A DNA stretch of 64,000 bases, taken from an uncultured Lachnospiraceae bacterium (lineage in GTDB: Bacteria; Bacillota; Clostridia; Lachnospirales; Lachnospiraceae). The stretch spans positions 248,001 to 312,000 of the forward strand of contig CAMUMG010000002.1 in NCBI GenBank assembly GCA_947089905.1, given 5' to 3'. The notes under the pieces were generated by a model. That model saw only the letters and a list, made by a program, of their open reading frames with translations. It was not told where the DNA came from and searched no databases. A program made the position numbers and the translations under genes. Of this stretch, positions 4,230-29,662 are shown piece by piece (the stretch's first letter is position 1; each line of letters begins with the position of its first letter).

Positions 4230-4663
4230 TTATTTACAATCTTCTTTCATAGGATCAAATTCTGGATTAAGTGCATAATAATTTTTAGAATTCAATTTAT
4301 CCTGCACCAGCCGTAAACCTTCACCGAATCTTTGGAAGTGGACTAATTCACGTTGTCTTAAAAAGCGAATTGGATCACAGATATCAGAATCGTGCACTAA
4401 TCTTAGAATATTATCATAGGTAGTACGAGCCTTTTGTTCTGCTGCCAAATCTTCATGCAGATCTGTAATAGCATCGCCTTTAGATTGGAAAAAGCAAGAG
4501 TTAAAAGGAATTCCTCCTGCTGCCTGTGGCCATAGACCAACAGTATGATCAACATAATAGTTTGCAAATGGAGTTCCTTCAATCTGATCTGGAGTGAGAT
4601 CACGGGTTAATTGGTGTACAATAGCACAAACAATTTCCATGTGAGCAAGTTCTTCTGTACCTA
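4230..4663 (-). pseudogene. cotJC: cotJC, C-terminal part (separated from its N-terminal part by element A)
   Basis: Encodes the last about 144 residues of CotJC, a spore-coat protein of the manganese catalase family. Signature segments are TEELAHME (ExxH metal ligands, at the very break), DHTVGLWP, DLHEDLAAEQKARTTYDNIL and REL(V)HFQRFGE. It has no start codon or ribosome site of its own at the break: the frame simply continues into element A and stops making sense beyond TEELAH. The missing first 61-62 codons are at 29468-29660, in the same orientation, 25 kb away. Joining 29660-29477 to 4660-4230 gives 615 nt, 205 codons including the stop, with no frame change. Unless element A is excised, this part is not expected to make a working protein. 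Confidence 0.92.
4652..4663. repeat. Element A attachment core, left copy (12-bp direct repeat)
   Basis: CTTCTGTACCTA, identical to 29468-29479 and in the same orientation. It lies inside the cotJC codons for Gly-Thr-Glu. The dyad centre defined by the two 13-bp inverted arms falls on the CC at 4660-4661, the most likely 2-bp crossover site. Confidence 0.88.
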
Positions 4664-4675
4664 CAAATATTCCTG

Positions 4676-4688
4676 AAATGTTCCAAAA
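4676..4688 (+). repeat. Element A left inverted arm (recombinase half-site)
   Basis: AAATGTTCCAAAA, the exact reverse complement of TTTTGGAACATTT at 29449-29461. Both lie 14 nt from the CC at the centre of the shared core. In the excised circle the two arms would flank the core symmetrically, as in a serine-integrase attP. Confidence 0.82.
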
Positions 4689-4781
4689 ATAAGAGATAAA
4701 TTTTTCTGTTTTGTTAATAGGACATCTGAATAAAGGATATATATAGTATAATGATTAATTTATATAATGAGGGTGTTGCTA

Positions 4782-4988
4782 TTGAAGCAAAGGGAATTTA
4801 TTTATGTTGGTGAAGCTGTTCCAAAAATTACAGAGCAAGAATATAAAGTATTTTTGTTACAGTTCCAAAAGTCACTCCTTTTTTCTTTAAAGAAAAACGA
4901 GTTTTTGACTGATTCACAATATGAATGTTGTATAGAGGAGCTTGAAAAACAAATTAAAAGGAAGAGAATTTCTAATGTCAATCAATAA
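4782..4988 (+). CDS. Small helical protein encoded ahead of element A recombinase
   Basis: A short, charged, probably helical protein (68 residues from TTG 4782). I prefer TTG 4782 because GAGGGTG lies 6 nt upstream; the ATG at 4767 contains that ribosome site. Its centre (SLLFSLKKNEFLTDSQYECCIEEL) aligns with the small ORF ahead of the first B1 recombinase (SITKSMRKEELITKEEYNRI). Both overlap the following recombinase start by 13-14 bp, so translation is probably coupled. Such SHOCT-like small proteins are commonly found next to clostridial serine recombinases; a role as recombination accessory or directionality factor is an inference. Confidence 0.65.
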   Translation: MKQREFIYVGEAVPKITEQEYKVFLLQFQKSLLFSLKKNEFLTDSQYECCIEELEKQIKRKRISNVNQ

Positions 4989-5165
4989 ATATGAAATTTT
5001 AAGTCAAGAAAAAAAATACGTAGATGACAAGATACGTGTGGCTGCGTATTGTCGTGTTTCTACTGATAGCCAAGATCAGGTTAATTCGTTTGAAAATCAG
5101 AAGCGTTATTTTAAACAGTATATTGAACATAAGCCTAATTGGGAACTTTTTGAGATCTTTACTGA
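4975..5165 (+). pseudogene. Element A serine recombinase, N-terminal part (interrupted by B1/B2)
   Basis: Encodes the first 63 codons and two bases of codon 64 of a large serine recombinase. The start of the resolvase domain is clear: VAAYCRVSTD with the nucleophile Ser29, then SFENQ and PNWELFEIFTD. In place, the frame runs on into B1 for a few meaningless codons and stops at 5199. The rest of the gene lies at 28087-29434. Joining the parts at the GA dinucleotide 5164-5165/28085-28086 yields FTDEGISGTNTKK, the expected conserved motif, and a continuous 1,539-nt frame (512 residues). Overlap with the preceding small ORF suggests coupled translation. As it stands the gene cannot make an active enzyme. 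Confidence 0.9.
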
Positions 5166-5190
5166 TATGAAAATATCTAATTTGATACAA
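5164..5190. repeat. B1 left end (attL of the inner elements)
   Basis: GA (5164-5165), then 16 nt, then TTGATACAA (5182-5190). The same spacing, GA-N16-TTGATACAA, occurs at 20605-20631. The mirror image, TTGTATCAA-N16-GA, occurs at 20580-20606 and 28060-28086. A GA crossover dinucleotide is also known from TnpX/TndX-type serine transposons. Confidence 0.85.
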
Positions 5191-5337
5191 TTAAGTTAAA
5201 AGGAAAGAGCAGTTATATTTAAAAATCGAATATACAAGAATAAAAAGTAAAAAATGAACTGGAATAGGGACAAACCTATCACTCATAAAATGTTTTATGG
5301 AATAAGTCAATCATTTTACTACAGGGAGGTAATAGCT

Positions 5338-5556
5338 ATAAGCAAAGAACAATTTGACGCGGAGTTAATGTATTGTATAGCTCTTTCCATAACAAAATCT
5401 ATGAGAAAAGAGGAACTGATTACAAAAGAAGAATACAATCGGATTGATACAATTTTATTAGAAAAATATCAACCGACTTTGGGCACATTATTGGCTGGGA
5501 AACCCTTAAAGGAAGAGAGCTTTTTGAGTGGAGATTTGGATTTATGTCTAAAATAA
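5338..5556 (+). CDS. Small helical protein ahead of B1 recombinase 1 (start codon appears to be ATA)
   Basis: Short protein reading SKEQFDAEL...ITKSMRKEEL...LLEKYQPTLG, a helical SHOCT-like type seen ahead of clostridial serine recombinases. A strong ribosome site GGGAGG (5324-5329) stands 8 nt before an in-frame ATA at 5338, exactly where ATG would be expected. The nearest in-frame ATG (5254) has no ribosome site and would add 28 residues of unconvincing sequence. The true start codon therefore seems to have mutated ATG to ATA, or ATA is used weakly. The 3' end overlaps the recombinase start at 5544 by 13 bp, so poor initiation here could lower recombinase expression. Confidence 0.6.
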   Translation: MSKEQFDAELMYCIALSITKSMRKEELITKEEYNRIDTILLEKYQPTLGTLLAGKPLKEESFLSGDLDLCLK

Positions 5557-6764
5557 AAAAAGTAGAACCTCTCTTTTTACCACTTCAAAAACCAAAAAAA
5601 GTAGCTATTTATGCAAGAGTTTCGAAAGATACAGGACAACTTATTCATTCTATTTTTGCACAGATAGACTATTATAGTGATATGATTAAAAAAAATCCTA
5701 AATGGGAATATGTAGGAGTATATGCTGATTATGGGATAACAGGAACATCTATTTCTAAACGACAGGAATTTCAGAGGATGATAGCGGACTGTGATATGGG
5801 AAAAATTGACATTATCTTGACAAAGAGTATATCCAGATTTGCAAGAAATACAGTTGATCTTTTAAATGCAGTTCGACATTTAAAATCGCTTGGTATTGAA
5901 GTTTGGTTTGAAAGGGAACAGATTCATTCCTGTTCGAAAGATGGGGAGCTTATGCTTTCACTTCTTGCTTCCTTTGCACAAGAGGAAAGTTATTCTATCA
6001 GTGAAAATATAAAGTGGGGAATTCGAAAAAGGTTTGAGGCTGGAGAAAGTAGAGAGGTAAATAAACATGTTCTAGGTTATCAATATGATGAAAAACAGAA
6101 AAAGTATGTGATTATTCCACAAGAAGCAGAGATTATTCGTTGGATTTTTAATCTATGTCTTGAAGGAATTTCTCTTAGAAAAATTGCTAAAACATTAAAT
6201 GAAGAAGGATTTGTTACAATAAACGGTTGTAAGTTTACAGAGGCTTCGTTAAATACTATAATTCATAATGAAATTTATATGGGGGATATTAGACATCAGA
6301 AATATTTTGTAAAAGATCCTATTATGAAAAAGAAAGTTTTAAATCGGGGACAACTTCCCCAGTATTATATACAAGACTGTCATGAGGCAATTTTAGATAG
6401 AGAAACTTATAAAAAAGTACAAAAAAGAATAAAACACAAATCAGATAAAATGAATCTAAGGTACTGTTTTACAGGTAGTATCTACTGTGATATCTGTGGA
6501 AATTATTATACAAGAAAAAAAATTATAGTAAAAGGGAAGACATATATATATTGGATCTGTAGCTCTAAAAAGAAAAGGGAAATAGTTTGTAAAAGTACAA
6601 ATTTTAGGGAAGAAGAATTAGAACAAATTTGTGTACAGGTTCTTGAAATAGATGAATTTAACAAAACGATTTTTAAAAATAGGATTAACAAGATAACTAT
6701 TTTAGAAAATGGAGATTTAAAGTTTCATTTTACAGAGGGTAGAATAACTATAAAACAAAGATGA
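5544..6764 (+). CDS. Large serine recombinase 1 of element B1
   Basis: A 406-residue serine recombinase. The N-terminal resolvase domain has the nucleophile in VAIYARVS (Ser27), the conserved Y-G-I-T-G-T-S segment, and SISRFARN with the active-site arginine. A Recombinase domain (about 180-290) contains NEEGF...SLNTIIHNEIYMGD. A zinc-ribbon (CDICGNYY then WICSS...VCKS) follows near residues 315-355. It lacks the long C-terminal coiled-coil tail, so it is the short type that usually works as a pair with a longer recombinase. It is 35 bp upstream of recombinase 2. All key residues are intact, so it may act on the GA-centred B sites. Confidence 0.88.
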   Translation: MSKIKKVEPLFLPLQKPKKVAIYARVSKDTGQLIHSIFAQIDYYSDMIKKNPKWEYVGVYADYGITGTSISKRQEFQRMIADCDMGKIDIILTKSISRFARNTVDLLNAVRHLKSLGIEVWFEREQIHSCSKDGELMLSLLASFAQEESYSISENIKWGIRKRFEAGESREVNKHVLGYQYDEKQKKYVIIPQEAEIIRWIFNLCLEGISLRKIAKTLNEEGFVTINGCKFTEASLNTIIHNEIYMGDIRHQKYFVKDPIMKKKVLNRGQLPQYYIQDCHEAILDRETYKKVQKRIKHKSDKMNLRYCFTGSIYCDICGNYYTRKKIIVKGKTYIYWICSSKKKREIVCKSTNFREEELEQICVQVLEIDEFNKTIFKNRINKITILENGDLKFHFTEGRITIKQR

Positions 6765-6799
6765 CATGAAATTCTTTTTTTATAAGAGGGAGAAGAAAA

Positions 6800-8275
6800 A
6801 TGTCGAAAAATGTAATTGTAATACCTGCAACAAAAGAGAAGTACAACAGAGATTCTATTCAAAATCTTAAAAAGCGCAGAGTTGCTGCCTATGCTCGTGT
6901 TAGTACAGATCATGAAGAGCAGCAGAGCAGTTACGAGGCACAGATAGAGTATTATACAAATTATATCAAAGAACGAAAGGACTGGGAATTTGTATCTGTA
7001 TATGCCGATGAGGGAATTACAGGCTGTAATACCAGAAATAGGGATGGATTTAATAGGATGATAACAGATGCTTTAGATAATCGAATTGATCTTATTATCA
7101 CTAAGTCAGTATCAAGGTTTGCAAGAAATACAGTAGATAGTTTAACTACTATTCGTAAGTTGAAAGAAAAAAATGTAGAGTGTTATTTCGAGAAAGAAAA
7201 CATTTGGACATTTGATAGTAAAGGAGAATTGCTTCTTACAATTATGTCTTCATTGGCACAGGAAGAAAGTCGTTCTATTTCAGAAAATTGTACATGGGGT
7301 CAAAGAAAAAGGTTTGCAGATGGAAAAGTCACAGTCCCATTTCAAAGATTTCTTGGTTATGATCGGGGGGAAGATGGAAATTTAGTAATAAATGAAAAAC
7401 AGGCAAAAACTATCCGAAGAATTTATGGACTTTTTTTACAGGGAAGATCTCCCTATTCAATTGCAAAGCTGCTTACAAAAGAAAATATTCTAACTCCGGG
7501 AAACAAAAAAGTTTGGTCGCAAAGTACAGTAAAAAGCATACTTACTAACGAAAAATATAAAGGTGATGCTCTTTTACAAAAGGTCTATACAGTAGATTTT
7601 TTATCTAAAAAAAAGAAGATAAATGAAGGTGAAATTCCACAGTATTATATAGAAGGAAATCACAAGGCGATTATACCCCCTGCTATATTTGATATAGTAC
7701 AAAAAAATATAAAAGTAAATTTTTCCGGTAAAAACCGCAGAAGTAGTGTTGGTATTTTTTCTGGCAAAATCAAATGTGGTGACTGTGGAAGTTGGTATGG
7801 TTCGAAAGTATGGCATTCCACTGATAAATATCGCAAAACAGTATGGCAGTGCAATCACAAATTTGATGGTCAAAAAAAATGCAGTACTCCTCATTTAAAC
7901 GAAGAAATGATCAAAGAACTTTTTGTGAAAGCAGTAAACCTTCTTTTTACAGAAAAGGAAAAAATTATGGAAGATTATAATACTATTAAGAATATAATTT
8001 ATGATACAAGTATACTGGAAATAGAACAAAAAAGGTTACAACAGTGTATTGATAAAAATGATAGTATACAATTAGATGAGATTAAAAAAAAGATTTTGGA
8101 AAAGCAGAATAGAAAAAAGGCAGTAGAAAGATTTCTTATTAAAATGAAAATAGTAGATAAAATTTATATGGAATTTGATGAAGATAGTTGGTATAGTCTT
8201 ATAGAGTATATCACTATTTTTGATAAGAAAGATATTCGGTTTATATTTAAGAATGGAGTTGAAATACGAGTATAG
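6800..8275 (+). CDS. Large serine recombinase 2 of element B1
   Basis: A 491-residue serine recombinase with an intact catalytic domain (VAAYARVSTD, Ser35; ADEGITG; SVSRFARN). The Recombinase domain follows (ILTPGNKKVWSQSTVKSILT), then a zinc-ribbon (CGDCGSWYG ... CNHKF), a coiled-coil stretch (about 395-445) and a C-terminal cap ending WYSLIEYITIFDKKDIRF. That tail is homologous to the recombinase relic at 26020-26226 in B2. GAGGGAGAAG lies upstream of the ATG. With recombinase 1 it forms an apparent operon. It is the best candidate for the enzyme that integrates and excises B1 (and B2 in trans), which is an inference from location and integrity. Confidence 0.9.
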   Translation: MSKNVIVIPATKEKYNRDSIQNLKKRRVAAYARVSTDHEEQQSSYEAQIEYYTNYIKERKDWEFVSVYADEGITGCNTRNRDGFNRMITDALDNRIDLIITKSVSRFARNTVDSLTTIRKLKEKNVECYFEKENIWTFDSKGELLLTIMSSLAQEESRSISENCTWGQRKRFADGKVTVPFQRFLGYDRGEDGNLVINEKQAKTIRRIYGLFLQGRSPYSIAKLLTKENILTPGNKKVWSQSTVKSILTNEKYKGDALLQKVYTVDFLSKKKKINEGEIPQYYIEGNHKAIIPPAIFDIVQKNIKVNFSGKNRRSSVGIFSGKIKCGDCGSWYGSKVWHSTDKYRKTVWQCNHKFDGQKKCSTPHLNEEMIKELFVKAVNLLFTEKEKIMEDYNTIKNIIYDTSILEIEQKRLQQCIDKNDSIQLDEIKKKILEKQNRKKAVERFLIKMKIVDKIYMEFDEDSWYSLIEYITIFDKKDIRFIFKNGVEIRV

Positions 8276-8979
8276 GAGTTGTAACATGAAGATAAAAAAT
8301 GAAAATAGAACGTCTTTATGCTATTATGTTATATATTTGTGGTCAAAAGGGGTTGTACAAAATAAAGTTTTTTGTATAGTTTTGCTGTTACATTCTATAA
8401 TAAATATATAGATTGAAACTCAAATAGTTTTCTTTTTCATTTCAATTATACATAACAGCAGTAGCGGGCGTATATCTCCTACTGCCATGAAGCAATCCAC
8501 ATCATTGTCTTGCTCTTAACTGCCGCGAGTGGATTGAAACAAGTAGTCAGCCAAAACGGTTCTCACGTAAAATTGAAGAATCATATTACTGGATGTCAAA
8601 CTATAGTTCCTTATCATAACACAAGCCTGATCAAGTCCATCTTCTGATGGGCTTTTTTTTATAAGTATCTAAAAATAGGAATTAACTGTTGTAATTAATT
8701 AATAAAAAATTATAATAGGAATTAGTGAACAGTCCGATCAATAGAGAAAATAGTTCGAATATCAAAGCCAAACAACAATAGTATTATTTTAGATCTTTCT
8801 GTTTTACGGAAAGAAGATCAAAGTACATTTAAGCTTGTGTGGATGAAGGATTTAAAGGTGATAGAGAAAATTTTTGAAAGAGAACATGAATCCGCAGATA
8901 CTATTTTAAAAATGACGGATAAAATAGATTCCCATGAGTATATCAAAATATTTGTAAAATGTAAATTGGAGGAAATGTT
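8276..8979. other. 700-bp stretch with relics, B1
   Basis: Between recombinase 2 and the acetyltransferase there is no intact gene. It holds a small inverted repeat (GCAGTAG/CTACTGC near 8459-8486), the HicA relic, a T-rich hairpin near 8623-8658, and an open but start-less frame from 8729 that runs into the acetyltransferase gene (readable as LDLSVLRKEDQ, then EKIFEREHESAD). That last frame looks like the tail of a lost gene; I do not recognise its family. Confidence 0.4.
8487..8647 (+). pseudogene. Relic of a HicA-type toxin
   Basis: A stretch of about 45 codons ending at the TGA 8645-8647 reads SGLKQVVSQNGSHVKLKN, then TGCQTIVPYHN and a short tail. It matches the HicA mRNA-interferase pattern with the catalytic GSH motif and the V-P-x-H strand. 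The likely original ATG (8487, MKQST) is out of frame with this stretch, so the gene is frameshifted. No HicB antitoxin is recognisable nearby. A hairpin with a T-run follows (about 8623-8658). Confidence 0.5.
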
Positions 8980-9561
8980 ATGGTTAATCCATATAAAAAA
9001 TGTCCCGTTTTTGAGAATAAAAACTATCTTATAAGATTGATTGAAACCTCAGATGCAGATGATTTGCTTTTGGTTTATTCTGATGAAAAGGCTGTGCCAT
9101 TCTTTAACAGTGATAATTGTAATGGAGATGATTTTTATTATAAATCTTTAGAGCGTGTACAGGGTGCAATAGACTTTTGGAAATGTGCATACCAAAAAAA
9201 AGGTTTTATTCGTTGGACAATTATTGACAAAAATATTGATCATGCTATAGGAACGATAGAATTATTTAACCGTAGATCAAATGATTATTTTAATAATTGT
9301 GGTCTGTTGCGATTAGATTTAAGAAGTGACTATGAATACAGAAAAAGTATTTTTGAAATCTTATCTTTAATGATACCTTCAACATTTGAATTATTTCAGT
9401 GCCAAATGATTGCTACAAAGATTCCGCATTTTGCTTCTGAGCGAAAAATGGCAGCAAAAAAGTTAGGGTTTACACTATCTAAAGAAAAATTAATAGGTGG
9501 AGATGATAAAAAGATTTATACTGATTATTATATATTAAACACAACAAATCTGTTTGATTGA
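8980..9561 (+). CDS. GNAT-family N-acetyltransferase
   Basis: A 193-residue cytoplasmic protein with the RimJ/RimL-like GNAT layout. The opening strand is YLIRLIETSDADDLL. The core strand RWTIIDKNIDHAIGTIELF is followed by the helix/strand region LLRLDLRSDYEYRKSIFEIL, which replaces the usual R-x-x-G-x-G/A acetyl-CoA loop. The ending ERKMAAKKLGFTLSKE...DYYIL is typical (A-x-x-x-L-G-F). It should transfer an acetyl group from acetyl-CoA to an amine; the substrate is unknown. The start ATG follows GGAGGAAATGTT. The cofactor loop is degenerate compared with classical GNATs, so activity is uncertain. Confidence 0.72.
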   Translation: MVNPYKKCPVFENKNYLIRLIETSDADDLLLVYSDEKAVPFFNSDNCNGDDFYYKSLERVQGAIDFWKCAYQKKGFIRWTIIDKNIDHAIGTIELFNRRSNDYFNNCGLLRLDLRSDYEYRKSIFEILSLMIPSTFELFQCQMIATKIPHFASERKMAAKKLGFTLSKEKLIGGDDKKIYTDYYILNTTNLFD

Positions 9562-9639
9562 CGAATCATTATCTGTCAATTATAATAAATAAAAGATTTA
9601 ATCTTTTGAAAGTTTTCTTAAAAATGAAAGGATTTATTT

Positions 9640-11463
9640 ATGCAAAAGATAAAACAGTTTATAAAAATAATTTCTACAAATATAAAAGTATTAATAGGAT
9701 TTGAAATTATTTTTAAGTTACTGACCATGTTGATTGCTGTTCCATTATTTTTAAGTATATTTGATTTAATTATGAAAATAACAGGATATACTTATTTGAC
9801 ATTAGAAAATATAATCTCATTTGTAACTCAACCAATTACCTTTTTATCTTTATTAATTTTGATAATAATAATGACAATTTATACTATGTTTGATATTACA
9901 ACGGTTATTATTATCTTAGATCAGTCCTATCAAAAAAAGAAGGTCAGAATTTTAGATGCTGTTAAACTATCCATACAAAAGTGTAGAGGATTATTTCATA
10001 TTCGTAGTCTTTCTTTAGCCTTTTTTACGCTGTTTTTAATTCCATTTTTAAATATTGGAATGACTTCTGGACTAATTTCTACAATTCCGATTCCAGAATT
10101 TATTCAAGAATATATTATAAAAGATCCAATATTGTTTCCATTAGCATTAGGGGTAGTTATTCTACTTACAATATTATTGTTTCATTGGATTTACTCCTTA
10201 CATTATTTTGTTTTAGAGGATATTTCTTTTAAGGAAGCAAGAAAAAGAAGTCGACATCTTGGAAAAAAGAAACATCTTAAAGATTTTCTCTTTCTAATAG
10301 TAATCCAGATTATAATTTCTATTGTTTATATACTATTTATTATGATAGGGATTTTATTGATTATAATAATTTCAAGTATATTAAATAGATTTATTTTTCT
10401 AAATAATATACTATTTTTAATTGTTGGAATATTCATTATTATTTCTGCTGCTATTCTTATGATTTTAGCAATTCCTATCAGTTATGCCTGTATTAGTGTT
10501 TTATATTATATACATAAAAAAGAATGCAAAGAAAAGATTTATTCACTAGAGGTAAAAAAAATAAATCAGACCATTAAAGAGAAACCTCATCTACACAGTA
10601 TCACTTATTTGGCAATAATTATTATGCTAATTTTGGGGACAAGATTTATCTATGAATTATATCTAGGAAAATATAATTTTAATATTGAATATGTTAAAAC
10701 AGCAGAGGTTACTGCACATAGAGGGGCATCTGTAAACTATCCAGAAAATACAATGAGTGCATTTATGGGTGCAAAGGAATTAGGAGCAGATTGGATTGAA
10801 TTGGATGTGCAGCAGACAAAGGACGGAAAAATTATTGTGATTCATGATACTAATTTCAAAAGAACTACAGGAGTAGATAAAAATACATGGGAACTTGTTT
10901 ATGATGATGTGTGTAAATTAGATGCTGGAAGTTTTTTTAGTTCTGATTTTTTGGGGGAACAAATTCCTTTGTTATCGGATGTAATTGTCTTTGCAAAAGA
11001 GAATAATATTAAGTTAAATATTGAGTTAAAACCTACAGGTTATGAAACAGATTTTGAGAAAAATGTTGTAGATATGATAATAGAATTGGATTTTGAAGAT
11101 AAATGTGTGATTACATCTCAAGTTTATCATGTATTAGAAAATGTAAAAGCATATAACCAAAAAGTACAAACAGTTTATGTTATGAGTCTGGCATATGGGA
11201 ATATTACTTCATTAGAGGCTGCTGATCATTTCAGTATTGAAGCAACCAGTATAACTGCCGATTTAGTCAGTAGAGTACATAGGGAAGGAAAAGAACTTTA
11301 TGCGTGGACAGTCAATACACAAGAAAGTATCAGAAAAATGATAGAATTAAATGTAGATAATATTATCACTGATAATATTTCATTAGCAAAAAAGACAATT
11401 TATGAGGAAAAAAATAGTGATTTTATTAACGAATATATAAGGTTATTGGAAGGAATTTTTTAG
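9640..11463 (+). CDS. Membrane glycerophosphodiester phosphodiesterase
   Basis: A 607-residue protein with two parts. Residues 1 to about 350 hold several hydrophobic membrane segments with positively charged loops (the GDPD membrane-anchor domain). Residues from about 358 form a GDPD TIM barrel with the catalytic AHRG, PENT, ELDVQ...G, and IHD motifs, then LNIELKP and a C-terminal AWTVN...NIITD. It should cleave glycerophosphodiesters, or lipid/teichoic-acid derived glycerophosphate groups, at the membrane. Classic catalytic residues (HR, E, D, H) are all visible. It lies alone between the acetyltransferase and the DUF362 gene with AT-rich spacers, and belongs to the B1 cargo. Confidence 0.88.
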   Translation: MQKIKQFIKIISTNIKVLIGFEIIFKLLTMLIAVPLFLSIFDLIMKITGYTYLTLENIISFVTQPITFLSLLILIIIMTIYTMFDITTVIIILDQSYQKKKVRILDAVKLSIQKCRGLFHIRSLSLAFFTLFLIPFLNIGMTSGLISTIPIPEFIQEYIIKDPILFPLALGVVILLTILLFHWIYSLHYFVLEDISFKEARKRSRHLGKKKHLKDFLFLIVIQIIISIVYILFIMIGILLIIIISSILNRFIFLNNILFLIVGIFIIISAAILMILAIPISYACISVLYYIHKKECKEKIYSLEVKKINQTIKEKPHLHSITYLAIIIMLILGTRFIYELYLGKYNFNIEYVKTAEVTAHRGASVNYPENTMSAFMGAKELGADWIELDVQQTKDGKIIVIHDTNFKRTTGVDKNTWELVYDDVCKLDAGSFFSSDFLGEQIPLLSDVIVFAKENNIKLNIELKPTGYETDFEKNVVDMIIELDFEDKCVITSQVYHVLENVKAYNQKVQTVYVMSLAYGNITSLEAADHFSIEATSITADLVSRVHREGKELYAWTVNTQESIRKMIELNVDNIITDNISLAKKTIYEEKNSDFINEYIRLLEGIF

Positions 11464-12536: not shown

Positions 12537-12561
12537 TTTTTATAGAGATTTTCTAAAAAAG

Positions 12562-21703: not shown

Positions 21704-22550
21704 CGGTGTCAATATCCCTGCTTATCACAATGGAGCGGTCTTCTAATAATATGGGATAACAGGGATTGGTGAGGTTTATGCTTGCATAAACGGCATCCGG
21801 ATTCTTTACTGGCATGTTCCAGAAAGGAAACTTTATGACGCCCGGCGAATTGAAGCCGACGCCCAGCTCAAGGTATAAAATCCTGCCGGTTTCGTGGCAT
21901 GACAGGTATTCTTCATAGCGGTCATGTGCAGTATGCCAGCCTTCATCCCGGACGAAGGTATCATCCCAGAACAGGTTAAAGTCCATTTCCCGTCCGCATT
22001 TTGGACAGTGTGGGATGAGTTCTGCGGGTATCCGCATACCCCTGGCCTCTGCCGTCATTTTTTTCAGGGTTTCGTAATTATCATAAGTGGCAGTATGGCA
22101 GGGCTTCGAGCATTGGAAGAGCCCGAAATCGCCCTGGGTATAGCACAGCTTTTCTTTCGGAAAGCCGGAGCGTTGGAAAGTATGGTCGATGTTGGTAGTC
22201 AGGACAAAATAATCTTTCCTGGACAGAAGTTCCAGCAGTTTCTTGTGGGTATCTTTTGGAATCTCTTCATAGCGGTTAATCCATGCCCAACGTGACCAGT
22301 AGGTCCACCGTTCTTCATTAGTTTCAAAGTCCGCAAAACAGCCGGTATACATATCTATCATCCCGTATTTATTCACGAAGTCTCCAAAATGCTTTTCCAG
22401 GCGTTCCCCGGCAAATTCGTATCCTGCGGAAGCGGAGAGATCGCTCCCGGCACCGATGATCACGGTATCGGATTCTTCAAGGGTCAGCCGGAGCTTTTTT
22501 AGTTCGCTTTCATAGGTTCCAGTTGTGCCGGCGGCGATGTTTTTTATCAT
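21684..22550 (-). CDS. SirTM-type sirtuin (protein ADP-ribosyltransferase class)
   Basis: A 288-residue Sir2-fold protein of the macrodomain-linked (class M, SirTM) type. Visible motifs: GAGSDLSASAGYEFAGERLEKHF (NAD binding), KYGMIDMY, YWSRWAWINRY, TTNIDHTFQRSGF, then YTQGDFGLFQCSKPCH. The catalytic His of ordinary deacetylases is replaced by Gln (TQGDFG), which is characteristic of SirTM enzymes that ADP-ribosylate protein targets. Four zinc cysteines are present (CSKPC ... CPKCG). In known systems SirTM modifies a lipoylated GcvH-like protein and is reversed by a macrodomain enzyme. The macrodomain gene is nearby (23135), but no gcvH-L or lplA gene is in the window. Confidence 0.88.
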   Translation of the reverse strand: MIKNIAAGTTGTYESELKKLRLTLEESDTVIIGAGSDLSASAGYEFAGERLEKHFGDFVNKYGMIDMYTGCFADFETNEERWTYWSRWAWINRYEEIPKDTHKKLLELLSRKDYFVLTTNIDHTFQRSGFPKEKLCYTQGDFGLFQCSKPCHTATYDNYETLKKMTAEARGMRIPAELIPHCPKCGREMDFNLFWDDTFVRDEGWHTAHDRYEEYLSCHETGRILYLELGVGFNSPGVIKFPFWNMPVKNPDAVYASINLTNPCYPILLEDRSIVISRDIDTVIRELA

Positions 22551-22726
22551 GATGGATGCCTCCTTTATTGTTTTCTCGTCAGCAGTATATTCTTTCTACT
22601 TGATATGGGCAATATATTTGTAAATTTATTAGCCACTATTCTTTTTCATAGTAACTTGATTTTTGATTGATATAAAGGGATAATGATATAGGGATACGCA
22701 GAAAAAGAATGAGTTGAGGTGATCAT

Positions 22727-23113
22727 ATGTATAAACCAAAATTAGACAAGGATATCCGCTGTCCGCTGGAATATGGCCTAGATGTGTTCGGGGGTAAATG
22801 GAATTCCCGGATCATCTGTGTGCTGGCGGCAAAAAAGACATTGCGGTACAGTGAACTGCGCAGTGAGCTTACCAATATTACGGATGCGGTTCTTGGCGCT
22901 TCGTTAAAGGCGCTGATGAAAAACGGTATGATAAACCGGCAGTCGTATGATGAAATCCCTCCCAGGGTGGAATATTCCCTTACGGAGAAGGGGCTGTCTG
23001 TCGTCCCCATTTTGCAGAGCATCTGCCAGTGGTCGGGCGCTTATCATAAAGAGGATACGGAACATACCATGCAGCATTGCCAGAAGTGTGATTATAACGG
23101 CGGTGGGAGATAA
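22727..23113 (+). CDS. HxlR-family transcriptional regulator
   Basis: A 128-residue winged-helix regulator of the HxlR type: CPLEYGLDVFGGKWNSRII (first helices), RYSELRSELTNITDAVLGASLKALMKNGMINR (recognition helix and wing), then YSLTEKGLSVVPIL. It has Cys at position 11 (CPLEY) and two or three C-terminal cysteines (CQKCDYN), so thiol or electrophile sensing is possible. It is divergent from the sirtuin gene and directly ahead of the macrodomain gene, so it probably controls both, perhaps via AAATTTATTAG motifs at 22622 and 20852. Confidence 0.88.
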   Translation: MYKPKLDKDIRCPLEYGLDVFGGKWNSRIICVLAAKKTLRYSELRSELTNITDAVLGASLKALMKNGMINRQSYDEIPPRVEYSLTEKGLSVVPILQSICQWSGAYHKEDTEHTMQHCQKCDYNGGGR

Positions 23114-23134
23114 CGGTGGGGAGGTGTGTGGAAA

Positions 23135-23929
23135 ATGGGTCGGTTAGAAAAAATACGGGCACTGAACAGCCTGCTTTTGAAAGAAGCGCCGGAGTACAGG
23201 CAGCAGGCGACACAGTTTGCAGAAGATACGGAGAGCCAGAGGCATCTGCTCCGAAGTCTGATGAATGTACGTTATCCTGGAAAGCGCTTCAGCCCAGAAT
23301 TTCTGCGCTTGCAGGATGAACTGTTAACAGAAGAACAAGAAGAAAAAGGGGTAGTGGATGTTCTGGAACTGCCGACCGTGAATTCAGACAGCCGTATCTC
23401 CCTATGGCAGGGGGATATTACATGTCTGAAGGCGGATGCTATTGTGAATGCGGCTAATTCGCAGATGCTTGGCTGTTTCATTCCGTGTCATGCCTGTATC
23501 GACAATGCCATTCATTCGGCGGCAGGGCTGCAGCTTAGGGAAGAGTGTCAGGAGCTGATGCAGGCTCAGGGACATGAGGAGCCTGTGGGCAGGGCGAAGA
23601 TAACAAAGGGATATAACCTTCCTGCAAAATTTGTACTGCATACGGTGGGGCCGGCAGTATCAGGAACCGTTACGCAGGAAGATGAAAAAAAGCTGGAATC
23701 CTGTTACCGTTCCTGTCTGGAACTGGCAGAAGCCAATGGGATCAGGAGCATTGTGTTCTGCTGTATTTCGACGGGGGTATTTTGTTTTCCCAACGGACGG
23801 GCGGCGGAGATTGCCATCCAGACGGTTAGGGAATATTTGAAAGGTTCACATATTCAGAGAGTTGTTTTTAATGTGTTTCAGGATCATGATAAAAGTATTT
23901 ATGAGCATTTATTGAAATGTAAGGCATGA
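23135..23929 (+). CDS. Zinc macrodomain, probable protein ADP-ribosyl hydrolase
   Basis: A 264-residue Zn-Macro protein from ATG 23135 (GGGGAGG 10 nt upstream). An N-terminal helical extension ending in RSLMNVRYPGK is followed by the macrodomain: ISLWQGDITCLKADAIVNAANSQMLGCF, then the zinc and active-site loop IPCHACIDNAIHSAAGLQLR, GRAKITKGYNLPAKFVLHTVGP, and FCCISTGVFCFPNGRAAEIA. This type removes ADP-ribose placed by SirTM on a carrier protein. Its position 13 bp after hxlR and 0.6 kb from the sirtuin gene supports a writer/eraser pair. Key residues appear intact. Confidence 0.88.
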   Translation: MGRLEKIRALNSLLLKEAPEYRQQATQFAEDTESQRHLLRSLMNVRYPGKRFSPEFLRLQDELLTEEQEEKGVVDVLELPTVNSDSRISLWQGDITCLKADAIVNAANSQMLGCFIPCHACIDNAIHSAAGLQLREECQELMQAQGHEEPVGRAKITKGYNLPAKFVLHTVGPAVSGTVTQEDEKKLESCYRSCLELAEANGIRSIVFCCISTGVFCFPNGRAAEIAIQTVREYLKGSHIQRVVFNVFQDHDKSIYEHLLKCKA

Positions 23930-23955
23930 GGGAAGGAAAAGGAGATGGTAACAGA

Positions 23956-24611
23956 ATGCCAGAAATCGTTTTTGAAAATATTTATAAAGAAAATTTTACT
24001 TTTTGGGAGAAAATATCCGATGCAGACAGGGAGTACATCTGCCAGAATTCTTATATGCTTACTTACCCAAAGGGAAGGAATATCCACAACGGCAAAGAAT
24101 GTTCCGGCGTAATCTTCGTCCGTTCCAAAAACCTGCGCCTTTATATGATGTCGGAGGAGGGAAAGGAGATTACACTTTATCGTCTGCACAGGGGCGATCT
24201 GTGTATGCTGTCTGCCATTACATTTGATATATTCATAGATGCGGAGGAGGACAGCCAGTGCTGTGTGGTCAGCGGTCCTGCTTTTGCGGCAGTGTCGCAG
24301 CGGAATCCGGACATCCGCATATTTGCATTGGAAACTGCGGTCAGCCGCTTTTCGGATGTGATGTGGGTGATACAGCAGGTACTGTTTATGAGCATGGATA
24401 AACGTCTGGCAATCTTCCTTTCGGATGAATCAGCCAGGACCGGTTCGGATACCATTGCGCTGACGCACGGGCAGATTGCCCGATATATGGGTTCTGCCGT
24501 GAAGTGGTATCCCGGATGCTGAAATATTTTGCCGGTGAAGGGATTGTGGAGGTTTCCAGAGGCAGCGTTACGATCCTTGATAAAAAGCGCCTCCGTGATC
24601 TAGCCTTTTAA
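23956..24611 (+). pseudogene. Crp/Fnr-family regulator, frameshifted
   Basis: Cyclic-nucleotide-type beta-barrel (KISDADREYICQNSYMLTY, GKECSGVIFVRSKNLRLYMM, GKEITLYRLHRGDLCML), the dimer helix, and the DNA-binding start (LTHGQIARYMGSA). At about 24497 one base is missing: the frame ends at 24522, while the +1 frame continues REVVSRMLKYFAGEGIVEVSRGS and ends at 24611, exactly as a Crp/Fnr recognition helix should. A functional protein would need that base. No cysteine cluster for an Fe-S centre is obvious at the N-terminus. It may have controlled the neighbouring thioredoxin and ferredoxin genes through TGTGAC-type sites. Confidence 0.85.
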
Positions 24612-24772
24612 CATGGCGAGGATATCTGCTTTCGGTCTTGCGCCTGCTGACTGGCTTATGACGTTTCCGTTTTTGATCACAGCCAGTGTGGGGATGCTCA
24701 TAACATGGAATTTTTGTGCCAGTTCCGATTCCTGGTCTACCTTGATCTTGCCTATCCATGGATTATGGACAT
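24600..24772 (-). pseudogene. Thioredoxin, internally deleted
   Basis: A start codon (ATG 24772-24770, after AAGGAAGG) opens MSII and then the reading jumps, after loss of the central part including the CGPC active site, to GKIKVDQESELAQKFHVMS, then IPTLAVIKNG and ADILAMLKG. The last about 55 residues are a typical thioredoxin C-terminus with the cis-proline (SIPT). The gene is therefore dead. It ends convergently with the Crp/Fnr pseudogene with a 12-bp overlap. A TGTGAC palindrome lies about 65 bp upstream. Confidence 0.8.
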
Positions 24773-24822
24773 GATCAGTACCTTCCTTTCTTTTTATCTG
24801 TTAGCAGTGTATCATATCCTGC

Positions 24823-25414
24823 TTACTGTTTCTGTGACGAAGTCACGTTTTTTGCTTTGCATATAAGCTGTGTCATTGTTCCCATGGGGCAGTATACGCA
24901 CCAGGAGCGGGTTTGAATAAGGTCATGGTCAAAAATCCCAGTACGGTGGAGGTGAGCATCACGCTGTAGAAGCAGAATGCGAACTGGGCGACACCGTCAG
25001 AGAACAGGGTTCCATGGTAAGCCCAATATCATGGAAGCTTGAATGTCCACAGCAGTGTTACTACGGTACCAAGATTTTTTGCCCCGGCGAAAACCAGCCA
25101 GGTGTTCCACAGCATAAGGAAGAACATTGCAAAGAAGAATATCAAAAATCCATATCGGAAATAACCCGATCTCATCCAGCCGGGGATATCCTTTTTCCGT
25201 GACAAGCCGAACCTGCCGCCGACCAGGGAAAATAGCTGGTCTCTGCCACAATATTTGTTGCAGTATGCCTTATTGCCTTTTACAACCGCTATGGCAAGAG
25301 GGATAAAAAAGCATAAAAGCCCCAGCCATGCAAAGAGGATATTAAAAAAGCCAAGGATCAGGTAGGTCAGTGAGGCGATCCAAAGGTAATCATACCATTT
25401 CTTTTTTCCTTTCA
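24823..25414 (-). pseudogene. Membrane 4Fe-4S-binding protein (NapH-like), with stop and frameshift
   Basis: From ATG 25414 (MKGKKKWYDYLWIAS) the protein has membrane helices and cysteines NKYCGRDQ typical of polyferredoxin-like membrane proteins. An in-frame TGA at about 25025-25027 follows TFKLP, and after it the frame goes on sensibly (YWAYHGTLFSDGVAQFAF). A base is also lost near 24913, after which RSWCVYCPMGTMTQLIC completes the last cysteine motif. Two lesions make it a pseudogene unless TGA is a Trp-to-stop reading error. It is directly downstream of the small ferredoxin gene, with which it formed an operon. Confidence 0.78.
24833..24847. promoter_or_regulatory. Crp/Fnr-type operator, second copy
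   Basis: TGTGACGAAGTCACG, near-perfect dyad with the centre GAA, same core as 25662-25676. It is located inside the end of the membrane protein pseudogene and upstream of the minus-strand thioredoxin relic. Confidence 0.6.
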
Positions 25415-25609
25415 TTATTCTGTCACCTCCAATGAGATAATACTTGCGGGGCATTCCTTTACACATTTCCCGCATCCGACACATAATTCCCTGTTGACGA
25501 CCGCATGGATGCCGCCTGGAACGGTGATCGCGTTTCGTGGACAGACTTTTATGCAGCATCCGCAGGCAACGCATTCCCGGATGCTGACAGCCGCTTTCTT
25601 TTTTGTCAT
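25415..25609 (-). CDS. Two-cluster 4Fe-4S ferredoxin-like protein
   Basis: A 64-residue protein from ATG 25609 (preceded by AAAGGAG) with two Fe-S motifs, CVACGCCIKVCPRN and CVGCGKCVKECPAS. It should be a small cytoplasmic electron carrier. The upstream in-frame ATG at 25675 overlaps the operator and promoter and is rejected. It is the first gene of the broken operon with the membrane Fe-S protein. The gene itself appears intact. A sigma-A -10 box (TATAAT, 25640-25635) and a TGTGAC palindrome centred about 41 bp upstream of the likely transcription start indicate Crp/Fnr activation. Confidence 0.88.
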   Translation of the reverse strand: MTKKKAAVSIRECVACGCCIKVCPRNAITVPGGIHAVVNRELCVGCGKCVKECPASIISLEVTE

Positions 25610-25661
25610 GGTAAAACTCCTTTTGTTTTTCTTTATTATACAGGAAGAAACTGTTTGATTC

Positions 25662-25676
25662 TGTGACGAAGTCACA
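25662..25676. promoter_or_regulatory. Crp/Fnr-type operator at class II position
   Basis: TGTGACGAAGTCACA is a perfect 6+6 dyad. Its centre (25669) is about 41 bp upstream of the transcription start expected from the TATAAT box at 25640-25635 on the minus strand. That is the normal position for class II activation by a Crp/Fnr protein, such as the one encoded in broken form at 23956. Confidence 0.72.
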
Positions 25677-25678
25677 TT

Positions 25679-26226
25679 GATGCTGATTCCCAGGCGGAGA
25701 TGGAACGGCGGGCAGGGCTTGTCAATCCAACCTATCCTTTTACGGGAAAGATCAGGTGCGGCATATGCGACCAGAATTTTACCCGCCGGAAAGGAATCAC
25801 AAAAGGGAAGGAATACATTAGCTGGTTCTGCAGGGCGAAAAAGGAAGCAGGGATGACGTGTAAGAGCCGTAACTATCCGAAGAGAAGCTCATGGAAATAT
25901 GTGTGGGCTAATGGGGACAGGCAGCTTTGACGGGAGGCTTTTGAAAGGACGGTCAGGCTCATCACAGCACTGCCGGATGGAAGCCTTGCGATGCATTTCT
26001 TTGACGATGAAACCAGGTTGTGGGAAATGCCATCACTGAGAAGCAGGCGAAAAAGGAACAGATAGAAAGGCTCCTTGCAGAACTGGAGCGGCAGGACGGC
26101 GTGACCACGGAGTTTGATGAAGAGCAATGGTACAGCCTGGTTGATTTTGTCACAGTTTTTAATAAAGAAGATATCCGTTTCACCTTTAAAGATGGGACAG
26201 AGATTCAAGAAAGAAGTTGTGCATGA
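25679..26226 (+). pseudogene. Relics of two serine recombinases (B2)
   Basis: The first piece (25682-25930) encodes a recombinase zinc-ribbon, YPFTGKIRCGICDQNF, then WFCRAKKEAGMTCKSRNYP, followed by a frameshift. It matches the end of B1 recombinase 1. After a second out-of-frame piece (ERTVRLITALPDGSLAMHFF), the stretch 26020-26226 encodes QAKKEQIERLLAELE, then EQWYSLVDFVTVFNKEDIRF, which matches the C-terminus of B1 recombinase 2. So B2 once had the same recombinase pair, now reduced to tails; all catalytic domains are gone. Confidence 0.8.
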
Positions 26227-26322
26227 AGAGGATGCCATACAAATCGTGTGGAAAGTGCGGAATCCGTTTGACAGTTAAGTTTCTGTATGAAATATAGTTC
26301 CAATTTGGGAAGGATAATGGTA

Positions 26323-26352
26323 GAATATGAGCCATGGGCAGCGATGCCTGTG
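26323..26352 (+). other. Strong hairpin ahead of the nuclease-like gene
   Basis: TGAGCCA-GGGC and GCCT-TGGCTCA form a 10-12 bp stem around AGCGAT. It sits about 60 bp before the start codon of the gene at 26414, within the probable 5' untranslated region, and has no T-run. It may be an mRNA control structure or a leftover terminator. Confidence 0.45.
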
Positions 26353-26413
26353 GCTCAATGGTTTACTTTATGGGAAATGTAAGAATGAATGTACGAAAGG
26401 TGATAAGGGACAG

Positions 26414-27838
26414 ATGCGAGAATTAAGTAATATTAAGAGAAAAGTTTTTTTTAGCTATGCTTTTAAAGACACTGATAAGATTGATTTTGTCAGCATGAGA
26501 TTGCGAGAACGTGGTTTTGAAATAATGCGAAGTGTGGAATCACTGACTACGATGAATAATTTGAAAAACTTCATTACAAATGTGATTGATGAATGCGATT
26601 GCTTTATTCTTATTATTACAGATGGCATAAATAAATTTTCTATGATGGAATATGATGCGGCATTAAGTAAGGGAAAAAATACATTTGTATATATTAAAAA
26701 GGACATATTTAAGGGAGATGTAAAAAATAGTTTTGCGGATAAAATTGTGGGATTGTGGGAAAATGAAGATGATTTAGCAAATCGTATTATAGATGATATA
26801 TCACGATATGGATACAGCTATCCACAAAGAGGATATCAGTTTGAAATTATTGTGGATAAGATATTTCAATTATATGGTTGTATGACTGAAATGGCAAAAA
26901 AGAATGCAATGTATGACATATTGGCCAAAAAAGAAAATATAACATTTTATGTAGAAACAAAAGCTCTTAGACAAAGAATAATAGATGTTAAAACGGTATC
27001 GAATGCAGTTGCATCAGCCTCTGCATTAGCACAAGATACAAATTCAAAATTTGTTTTAGTCGCTGCTAATATATTTTCACCTAGAGTGCAAGAGATTTTA
27101 AAGAAAAATAATAATATTATTGCTTTGGATATAAGTAATTTACTATACATAGTTAAAGATAATGACATTTTAAAATCACAGTTGATTTCAATTTTAGAAT
27201 ATTCTGTGGATGATATAGAACCCAAGGTACCAACGGGATTAATGAATTTATTGGGAACGGAATATTCAGATATAGATGAAAAAACAGTTACGGAAGAAGA
27301 TGTTACTAAAAAATTAATAAAAGAAGTTCAAAGTTGGAAAGCGAAGGATAAAGATAGTAGTGAGTATGAGGATTTATGTATACGAGTTTTGAAGAATCTT
27401 TTTGAAGAAGATTTGGGGTTATGGAGTGATCAGCAACGCTCAAATGAAGACTTATATAGGTTTGACTTAATATGTAAGATAAAAGATAATATTCAAGTAG
27501 CGTTTTGGAGGTTTATTGAAGAATATTTTAGGTCGAAATATATAATTTTTGAATTTAAGAACTATACTAGGCGAATAACTCAAAAAGAAATTTATACAAC
27601 AGATAAATATTTATATGCTAAAGCCTTACGATGTGTTGCAATTATAATCTCTTGTGAGGGGGAAGATAAGAATGCAAAAAAGGCAGTGAAAGGGACATTA
27701 AGAGAAAACGGTAAATTGATTTTGAGTGTTTCGAATAAAGATTTGATAATGATGCTAAATGGAAAAGTTAAGGGTGATTCTCCTGCGGAATATTTATATA
27801 GTATGTTAGATACAATGCTTATAGAACTGGATAAATAG
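26414..27838 (+). CDS. TIR/DUF4062-like protein with two nuclease-like (PD-(D/E)XK) domains
   Basis: A 474-residue protein from ATG 26414 (preceded by AAAGGTGATAAGGG). Residues 1-95 look like a TIR or DUF4062 fold: KVFFSYAFKDTDKIDFV, LRERGFEIM, ECDCFILIITDGI, EYDAALSKGKNTFVYI. Residues about 130-240 resemble an Mrr-type nuclease (GYQFEIIVDKIFQLYGC, MYDIL, FYVETKAL). Residues about 310-474 form a second such region (EDLCIRVLKNLF, RFDLICKI, YIIFEFKNYTRR, CVAIIISCEG, NAKKAVKGTLRENGKLILSV). D...E-x-K signatures are visible in both. An immune or toxin role, sensing infection and cutting nucleic acid, is plausible by architecture but unproven. Its AT-rich codon use differs from the GC-rich genes just upstream. 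Confidence 0.65.
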   Translation: MRELSNIKRKVFFSYAFKDTDKIDFVSMRLRERGFEIMRSVESLTTMNNLKNFITNVIDECDCFILIITDGINKFSMMEYDAALSKGKNTFVYIKKDIFKGDVKNSFADKIVGLWENEDDLANRIIDDISRYGYSYPQRGYQFEIIVDKIFQLYGCMTEMAKKNAMYDILAKKENITFYVETKALRQRIIDVKTVSNAVASASALAQDTNSKFVLVAANIFSPRVQEILKKNNNIIALDISNLLYIVKDNDILKSQLISILEYSVDDIEPKVPTGLMNLLGTEYSDIDEKTVTEEDVTKKLIKEVQSWKAKDKDSSEYEDLCIRVLKNLFEEDLGLWSDQQRSNEDLYRFDLICKIKDNIQVAFWRFIEEYFRSKYIIFEFKNYTRRITQKEIYTTDKYLYAKALRCVAIIISCEGEDKNAKKAVKGTLRENGKLILSVSNKDLIMMLNGKVKGDSPAEYLYSMLDTMLIELDK

Positions 27839-28059
27839 GGATATTGTTCTTTATAGTAGAAAGTGCCTTCTTCTTCCATTACAATCCTGATACCGTAGAG
27901 TTCTTAACAGGGCTTAGAAAATAAGGTAAAGCTGTCCCTACCCAATGTCGGACTAAGGCTGGCTGCGAGGGTTTTTCTGCCGTTTTCCAATTTGAACCCT
28001 CCCCTGTGGGGCAAAATCAAACAGTATGCCAAAATCAAAATGTATAAGGCAAAATCGAA
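27839..28059. other. B2 right-end flank without a gene
   Basis: No coding gene is recognised. On the minus strand a short piece reads YGIRIVMEEEGTFYY, resembling part of a small clostridial DUF protein, with no valid start. The stretch 27990-28056 contains TTTGAACCCTCCCC and repeated GGCAAAATCAAA motifs that also occur near 20790-20826. Confidence 0.35.
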
Positions 28060-28086
28060 TTGTATCAAAGACAGCGTTTACATAGA
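28060..28086. repeat. B2 right end (attR of the inner elements)
   Basis: TTGTATCAA (28060-28068), 16 nt, GA (28085-28086); all 27 bp are identical to 20580-20606. The GA is also the first two bases of the GAT codon that is shared with 5164-5166 in the split recombinase. Confidence 0.87.
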
Positions 28087-29434
28087 TGAAGGCATTTCAG
28101 GTACAAATACAAAAAAGCGTAAAGAATTTAACCGTATGATAACATGTGCAAAAAATGGGGAGTTTGATTTCATTATAACAAAGGAAATTTCACGTTTTGC
28201 TAGAAATACTCTTGATAGTATATACTATACCCGTGAACTGAAAAAGTATGGTGTGGGTGTTATTTTTATGAATGACAATATTAATACTTTAGATAGTGAT
28301 GCAGAGCTTCGCTTGACGATTATGTCCTCTATTGCACAAGAGGAGAGTCGAAAGACTTCTGAGCGTGTAAAATGGGGACAAAAACGTCAGATGGAGCAAG
28401 GCGTTGTATTTGGAAGAAGTATGCTAGGTTATGATATAAAAGATGGTAAAATGTATGTGAATGAGGAAGGGGCAGAAATTGTTCGCCTTATCTTTCATAA
28501 GTTTGTACAGGAAAAAAAAGGAACACATACTATTGCACGTGAACTTAGAGAAGAAAATCTACAATCAATGAAAATAAGAAAATGGAGTAATACAACAATT
28601 TTAAGAATTATTCAAAATGAAAAGTATTGTGGTGATTTAATACAAAAAAAAACCTATACACCAGACTTTCTTTCTCATAAAAAAAAGATAAATTTTGGTC
28701 AGGAAGAATTTGTAATTATCAAAGATCATCATGAGCCAATTATATCTCGTGAACTATTTGATAGGGCAAATTGTATTTTAACTGCGAAATCATTTTCTCA
28801 GGAAGGAAAAAATAAATATAGCAATCGTTATCCGTTTTCTGGAAAAATTAAATGTGCCAGATGTGGGGTAAGTTATGTCGCAAGATATAAAACTAGAAAG
28901 GATGGAAGTAAATATAAGGCATGGCGTTGTCTAGAAGCAACAAAAAATGGTATACCAAATATTGATAGAGCTGGAAATAAAATAGGATGTGTAGGGTTCA
29001 GTATCCGTAATGAAGAAGTAATTCATATTATGGAGCTTGTCTGTAGGCAGCTAAAAATTGAGTATAATCAAATAATAGATAATTTGATAACAATAATAGA
29101 AAAAGTTGTTTCTATAGATATAACAGAAGTTTATGCTCTTTCTGAAAAGGTAGATGCTATTAAGAAAAAATGTACTAATTTAATTGATCTTTATACAAGT
29201 GGAGATATTGACCACAATGAATTTATTTTTTTTAGAGCGAAATATAATACAGAAATTGAAAATTTAAAATCTGAGATGGAGAAGCAGGATATATTAAGAA
29301 AAGAAATAAGAAACAGGATAAATGAAGAAGAGTTCTATGCAAAACTTCTCGATAAAATGATTATAGATAGAGAGAAAATAGATGTGTATTTGAATATGTT
29401 CCCTTTTTCATGGAGTTATATTATAAATAGATAG
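28087..29434 (+). pseudogene. Element A serine recombinase, C-terminal part
   Basis: Continues the recombinase begun at 4975. From the break it reads EGISGTNTKKRKEFNRM, EISRFARNTLDS (active-site Arg), the Recombinase domain (NEKYCGDLIQKKTYTPDFLS), a zinc-ribbon (CARCGVSYVA ... RCLEATKNG...GCVGFS) and a coiled-coil tail (about 400-450 of the joined protein). The catalytic Ser is missing from this part. The open frame upstream to 27992 is B2 end sequence and not recombinase. Precise removal of B1 and B2 joins codon 64 (GAT) and yields 512 residues. Stop at 29434, 15 bp before the right inverted arm. Confidence 0.9.
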
Positions 29435-29448
29435 TTAAAAAGAGTCAG

Positions 29449-29461
29449 TTTTGGAACATTT
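29449..29461 (+). repeat. Element A right inverted arm (recombinase half-site)
   Basis: TTTTGGAACATTT, perfect inverted partner of 4676-4688, 14 nt from the presumed CC crossover at 29476-29477. Confidence 0.82.
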
Positions 29462-29467
29462 GTGAAG

Positions 29468-29479
29468 CTTCTGTACCTA
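29468..29479. repeat. Element A attachment core, right copy
   Basis: CTTCTGTACCTA, same orientation as 4652-4663, and within the cotJC codons Ile-Gly-Thr-Glu. The recombination partner of the left core. Confidence 0.88.
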
Positions 29480-29662
29480 TATCTGTTAGAAGCCCTGCAA
29501 CTTCTCGATAGGGCATTGTATATCTTTGGGATAGATATCTTTGACTTGCAGCTAATTCGCCATCAGGACCTCCAAACTGACTAATAATTACTAGAGCAAG
29601 GTCAGCATTGGTCTGTTTGATATTGACTGGATATTGTAATCTTCTTTCATAAGTCCACATAA

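Follow-up and report, generated by a model that had tools for sequence, protein, structure and literature searches.

A cotJC gene split by a skin-like element whose recombinase gene is itself split: a putative two-step excision in a Lachnospiraceae genome

We analyzed a 64-kb stretch of one contig from an uncultured Lachnospiraceae bacterium (the window), in which the spore-coat gene cotJC lies in two parts. The bacterium is predicted to form spores. The interruption is nested. An outer element of 1.9 kb splits cotJC, the gene for its large serine recombinase, LSR1, is split in turn by a 22.9-kb insert, and this insert is a tandem of two Ccr-like elements with attachment (att) sites of their own, 2a (15.4 kb) and 2b (7.5 kb). 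We consider it probable, with considerable reservation, that cotJC can be restored from this arrangement by two successive excisions. The inner elements would first leave at a GA dinucleotide and rebuild LSR1. Subsequently, the outer element would leave at a CC dinucleotide and restore cotJC in the mother cell, a step that would be timed to this cell by the σE-type promoter preceding the LSR1 operon in relatives. The original prediction had described a single excisable element of 24.8 kb resembling skin. That cotJC contains a skin-like, gene-intervening element is strongly supported, both by its anatomy and by its relatives. With the outer recombinase gene interrupted, however, it is not one excisable element of 24.8 kb.

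The two cotJC parts are located on the same strand and share a 12-bp direct core, CTTCTGTACCTA, which occurs exactly twice in the window in the same orientation, at the predicted positions (Table 1). Joining at the core gives the expected 615 nt (204 amino acids plus the stop codon). The join lies within the conserved stretch DIGTEELAHME, and the joined protein covers positions 1-197 of the 284 of the Mn_catalase profile. Two details of the prediction needed correction. The N-terminal piece had been placed at 29445-29660, but only 29468-29660 is cotJC, while 29445-29467 is element DNA. The 13-bp inverted arms are a perfect pair (13/13 bp) at 14 nt on either side of the central CC, but they appear only when the two inner ends are joined as in a circle junction, not at either end singly. 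The host-side junction is not palindromic. In a chance check, an arm run of at least 12 in the first 15 bases was found once among 400,000 random position pairs inside the element. The outer circle junction looks as a serine-integrase attP should, with arms symmetrical about the dinucleotide common to attB. The target belongs to the sporulation program: the cotJC parts adjoin cotJB and cotJA, which match their own Pfam families, and the host encodes Spo0A and a SigE scoring over the model cut-off. A protein search of the bacterium's own genome (23 contigs, 94.3% complete) revealed no CotJC other than the two pieces in the window. The Mn_catalase profile gave an additional partial match on contig C1 (24.7 bits), which passes the 27-bit cut-off solely together with its frame neighbors (32.1) and is absent from the results of the CotJC search.

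Without the inner elements, the outer layer consists of one small open reading frame (ORF) and LSR1. The start of LSR1, with the motif YCRVST, which we take to be the catalytic-serine motif, is held by ORF 4942-5199 (positions 1-43 of the Pfam Resolvase profile), and the remainder by ORF 27992-29434. Both halves share a GA, and joining there restores the reading frame and the motif FTDEGISGTNT. The resulting protein of 512 amino acids contains the full Resolvase profile (1-144) as well as the Recombinase and Zn-ribbon domains. As sequenced, LSR1 is in two parts, and the outer element has no intact recombinase in the window. The small ORF is a candidate directionality factor: in an alignment of 12 copies the others are 53-63% identical to that of the window, and it has no Pfam match. 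A single 24.8-kb prophage was rejected, because the Pfam results for 29 ORFs (27 of them inside the insert) include no phage structural gene.

When the ends of the inner insert are joined (attP2), arms of 12/12 bp lie exactly 15 nt from GA on both sides. Matches of 9-10 bp between 5.1-5.2 kb and 28.0 kb were considered as an alternative crossover and rejected, since GA both restores the frame and centers the arms. The tandem reading is based on an extra copy of the right end at 20580-20606 that is directly followed by a left end. Element 2a carries an intact operon for a SHOCT_2 protein and two serine recombinases, R1 and R2. These reached 161.8 and 133.8 bits, respectively, with the CcrB model, whose cut-off is 900, and therefore are not over the Ccr cut-offs. 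Among the ORFs examined in 2b there is no intact recombinase; of its remnants, 26020-26226 has no Pfam match and by eye resembles R2-type C-termini.

Table 1. Features of the nested insertion in cotJC (positions refer to the window)
Feature	Position	Strand	Basis
cotJC, C-terminal part, up to core	4230..4663	-	join and Pfam PF05067
Outer element end 1, 12-bp core CTTCTGTACCTA, crossover CC 4660-4661	4652..4663	+	exact repeat, attP symmetry
Place of σE-like promoter for LSR1 operon, degenerate here (ATA-17-TATATAAT)	4741..4768	+	upstream-region comparison
Small conserved ORF ahead of LSR1, candidate directionality factor	4782..4988	+	alignment of 12 copies, no Pfam match
LSR1, N-terminal part	4975..5163	+	Pfam Resolvase profile 1-43
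attL2, crossover GA of inner element	5164..5165	+	12/12-bp arms 15 nt from GA in joined attP2
Inner element 2a, 15.4 kb, intact SHOCT_2-R1-R2 operon and cargo	5166..20606	+	ends, Pfam
SHOCT_2 small protein	5254..5556	+	Pfam PF20612
Serine recombinase R1, nearest NCBIfam models Ccr (below cut-off)	5544..6764	+	profile search
Serine recombinase R2, nearest NCBIfam models Ccr (below cut-off)	6800..8275	+	profile search
2a/2b tandem junction, attP-like around GA	20605..20606	+	right arm 20580-20589; left arm ATTGATACAA 15 nt after GA
Inner element 2b, 7.5 kb, no intact recombinase among ORFs examined	20607..28086	+	ends, Pfam
Recombinase remnants within 2b	25700..26226	+	Zn_ribbon_recom in 25700-25927
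attR2, crossover GA of inner element	28085..28086	+	att comparison
LSR1, C-terminal part, DEGISGTNT to stop	28085..29434	+	Pfam Resolvase, Recombinase, Zn ribbon
Outer element end 2, core, crossover CC 29476-29477	29468..29479	+	exact repeat, attP symmetry
cotJC, N-terminal part	29468..29660	-	join, Pfam, protein search
cotJB	29663..29920	-	Pfam PF12652
cotJA, extra N-terminal repeats	29923..30561	-	Pfam PF11007

The outer element recurs in relatives. A scan of genome contigs for LSR1 gave 105 relatives, the best 80 of which were kept; most of these have LSR1 reading frames of more than 500 amino acids. A cotJC half lies at most 200 bp from the end of the LSR1-type gene in 67 of the 80 (weakly, 39%, in L062; L numbers denote loci). 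The other 13 comprise six with a cotJC half elsewhere in the locus, two that end at a contig edge and five with none, so that 73 of the 80 fetched loci contain a cotJC half somewhere. Rejoining of cotJC was tried in 15 loci (the window and 14 relatives) and succeeded in 11 (the window and ten relatives); no join was obtained for L045, L053, L063 and L074. All 11 joins fall at DIGTEELAH-type residues with CC always as the best-armed in-frame pair, and three of these loci share just CC as the core. The window, L029, L030, L031, L060 and L064 have arms of the type GGAACATTT...AAATGTTCC on both sides. Those of L047, L052, L057 and L058 are variant or one-sided, and L070 has different arms; the best-armed pair was chosen by script, so these arm counts are selected (L058 had one in-frame candidate, L052 two). 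The second sample consisted of 397 evenly drawn genomes of the bacterium's own family, in which LSR1-type genes were accepted at E <= 1e-120 and no more than three candidates were scored per genome. Such a gene was found in 21 of them, the bacterium's own included, and 14 of 21 loci fetched from the 20 other genomes contain a cotJC half (flank 1.5 kb or less). CotJC matches occur in 244 of the 397 genomes, with many full-length proteins among the matches listed.

Comparative evidence suggests that the outer element moved recently, into diverged cotJC genes. Over the aligned part, L022, L023 and L025 have the same LSR1 protein, and yet a difference of 46-51% separates their cotJC/cotJB proteins. 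Ten pairs, picked for the similarity of their LSR1, have 96-99.7% identical DNA across the final 700 bp of the element versus 62-81% across the first 190 bp past the core. The distances of LSR1 and cotJ also correlate (Mantel rho 0.42, 0/999 permutations as high, 61 loci), which points to vertical inheritance too. The relatives of LSR1 among named phage records are all below 60%, and the same applies to the relatives of R2 among plasmid records. In ten loci (L053, L062, L072, L074, L176, L177, L178, L179, L181 and L182) the cotJC piece nearest to the LSR1-type gene is the C-terminal half, in varying orientation. Locus L024 has two tandem LSR1-type genes at 6001-10857 and no cotJC half within reach.

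The inner layer recurs as well. In L059, L061, L069, L071 and L075, the right end seen in the window, or one similar to it, lies ahead of the DEGIS/DKGIS codons of an LSR1-type gene, and the N-terminal LSR1 halves are found about 2.4 kb (L059), 55 kb (L061), 58 kb (L069) and 8 kb (L075) away. All six split LSR1 genes, the window and L071 included, rejoin in frame at GA, and arms 13-16 nt from GA are clear in five of them. Searching the 397 family genomes for the right-end pattern with up to three mismatches returned ten right ends in eight genomes. Upon reading, six run into a serine-recombinase motif (DEGISGT twice, DDGYTG, DEGISAT, DDNLTG and DDGFSG; one of these is the window), two into another left end, one being the tandem junction of the window, and two into neither; the DDNLTG right end (L135) had no tblastn support. 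The bacterium's own genome contains a second element of the inner type (L138, contig C9:49522-60702, 11.2 kb), which accounts for one of these six motif cases. It splits a recombinase gene, presumably TnpX-like, whose halves can again be joined in frame at GA, and the arms lie 15 nt from this dinucleotide. No R1/R2-type gene is among the ORFs listed inside it, and it is possibly mobilized in trans. The inner elements read as a family that integrates repeatedly at DEGIS/DDGFSG-type codons of serine-recombinase genes. Their insert in L061 and L069, with spans of 55-58 kb, may be prophage-like. Two IMG/VR records listed as viral (L144 and L145), both with an LSR1 C-terminal part and an R1/R2 pair, resemble the L061 and L069 loci. 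The attP2 pattern had two matches, L140 and L141/L151. The former was set aside because it matched none of the queries; the latter has the order R2-attP2-SHOCT-R1 without end overlap and fits a tandem and a circle equally.

We then inspected 55 regions upstream of the small ORF and LSR1 (54 relatives and the window) for promoters, using the σE consensus letters. The σE-like motif ATA-17-[CG]ATA[CT]A.T is present in 38 of them, against 0.31 expected and a maximum of 2 in 100 runs of first-order Markov simulations. Spacings of 15-18 were allowed and all 38 have 17, at 20 distinct sites; the regions are related, so these counts do not represent independent events. A σK-like pattern was found in 9/55 regions (2.03 expected, maximum 6) and a σA-like pattern in 0/55. 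Published work describes the σE and σK promoters of C. difficile as closely similar to those of B. subtilis, with the -10 element in common, and reports that cotCB and cotD, the paralogues of CotJC in C. difficile, depend on σK (PMC3789822); cotJC has been tabulated under σE (PMC3416734).

Several observations weigh against restoration of cotJC by two excisions. The LSR1 promoter of the window is degenerate at the homologous place and belongs to the 17 regions without a strict match. The R1/R2 operon lacks the σE-like motif in 6/6 hits (four independent elements), leaving nothing among our findings that would tie the first step to sporulation. The 2.4-kb inner insert of L059 has no intact recombinase among its listed ORFs, and in L071 the N-terminal LSR1 half lies on another contig and the left arm is eroded. 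No excised form was seen, the exact attP1 pattern having no match in viral contigs, and neither SHOCT_2 nor the small ORF is an established directionality factor. That the elements excise in this strain at all, when they do so and which site each recombinase uses are inferences on our part.

It is a real possibility, falling short of probable, that the locus is a frozen remnant, in which the inner insertion disabled LSR1, cotJC stays split and spores are made without CotJC at little harm. The promoterless appearance of R1/R2 with respect to σE and the L059 insert fit this explanation, as do the split of LSR1 and the own-genome search, which found no second LSR1 in a genome 94.3% complete. The girAB pair of the B. 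cereus gin element is not expressed in sporulation (PMC5595907), and insertional mutants of C. difficile cotCB and cotD had less catalase activity and no significant coat defect (PMC11222575). However, LSR1 and cotJC are each intact in both halves, as are the att sites, an intact R1/R2 operon is still present in the window, and the halves of the six split LSR1 genes contain no stop up to the join; stops in the L071 pieces were dismissed as a sign of decay, as they lie outside the LSR1 halves. The ratio of nonsynonymous to synonymous substitution rates (dN/dS) in split LSR1 C-terminal parts was 0.04-0.17, similar to the 0.03-0.21 of intact ones in five pairs (the window and two L069 pairs had saturated dS, L071 was left out, and no sequence was obtained for L075), but a recent insertion would look alike. 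The static remnant sketched in the original prediction combined a second intact cotJC with a degraded recombinase; we found no second CotJC by protein search, and LSR1 is split cleanly and in frame.

Alternatively, LSR1 could be supplied in trans by another element, and the outer 24.8 kb would leave in one step with the inner elements inside. The intact outer att sites and the two LSR1-type genes of L024 would agree with this, but the next best matches to LSR1 in the own genome are R2 (45%) and R1 (38%), all others listed being at most 33% identical, and we regard this route as very unlikely. An assembly artefact or chance resemblance might be suspected in a genome of 23 contigs. To this we give next to no credence, since two joins, independent of each other, are in frame and have symmetrical arms, and since other assemblies show this architecture too, including those of isolates (L058, L061 from Eubacterium sp. 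14-2 and L069 from Hespellia stercorisuis). Restoration by two successive excisions could form part of a broader scheme, which we put forward tentatively: the inner family may be specialized for catalytic-domain codons in the serine-recombinase genes of other elements, and its excision may license the mother-cell excision at cotJC, as in a relay.

Elements in sporulation genes are known from sigK, spsM, spoVFB, gerE and yabG (PMC10747680). As with skin in sigK (B. subtilis and C. difficile), SP-beta in spsM, vfbin in spoVFB and yin in yabG, a recombinase-bearing element splits a sporulation gene that precise excision restores (PMC5025042, PMC4191935, PMC10747680). Unlike in these cases, the target is cotJC, and the outer layer comprises just a small ORF and a serine recombinase that is itself split. 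Gin in gerE of B. cereus ATCC 10987 is similar in being a non-phage element with a serine recombinase (GirC), a short common core, an inverted repeat around a central dinucleotide and the extra pair girAB inside (PMC5595907). In gin, however, GirC is intact and girAB is without known role in the available text (PMC5595907), whereas here the extra pair resides in an element that splits the excision recombinase. Like the CcrA/B/C proteins of staphylococcal cassette chromosome (SCC) elements, R1 and R2 are serine recombinases encoded side by side. Their highest-scoring NCBIfam models are CcrB/CcrC, and both kinds of element form tandem composites. The scores are far under the Ccr cut-offs, however, and the elements described here lie in recombinase genes (LSR1 in the window) instead of rlmH, the gene in which SCC elements integrate. 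The CcrAB products are described as recombining non-canonical pairs of sites and as working without a directionality factor (PMC5595907).

The interruption elements of heterocyst-forming cyanobacteria also bear recombinases, lie inside developmental genes and are excised in a specialized cell type, but the accessible part of their description contains no case of a recombinase gene split by another excisable element (PMC4874684). Integrative mobilizable elements within integrative and conjugative elements likewise place one element inside another, some of them in a gene of the host element, and form tandems at one att site (PMC5704250); in contrast to what the available text describes for these, the target codons here encode the catalytic domain of serine recombinases. 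The open-access literature searched, as far as accessible, held no report of cotJC as a target, of element-split recombinase genes or of nested heterocyst elements, and no open-access paper found reports the layering of a coat gene split by an element whose excision-enzyme gene is split. By our results, cotJC joins the sporulation genes that such elements target, recurrently so in Clostridia and with comparative evidence of recent spread into diverged genes. They also reveal elements that parasitize, at a conserved motif, the recombinase genes carried by others. Should the relay work, expression of one coat gene would depend on two ordered DNA rearrangements; if it fails, the locus would exemplify a developmental rearrangement broken by hyperparasitism.

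Some further genes in and next to the nested insertion deserve mention. CotJA has a long N-terminal run of CGCDAPI(V/T)PP-like repeats ahead of its CotJA domain. The cargo of 2a includes a large BspA-type leucine-rich repeat protein (18299-20527). In 2b, a SIR2-like protein and a macrodomain ADP-ribose hydrolase are encoded close together (21684-23929), and its right end encodes a protein with TIR and Mrr-type nuclease domains (26327-27838), possibly a defense gene. PADLOC, applied to eight cargo proteins, returned one match, a weak SAVED_TIR match of this TIR protein.

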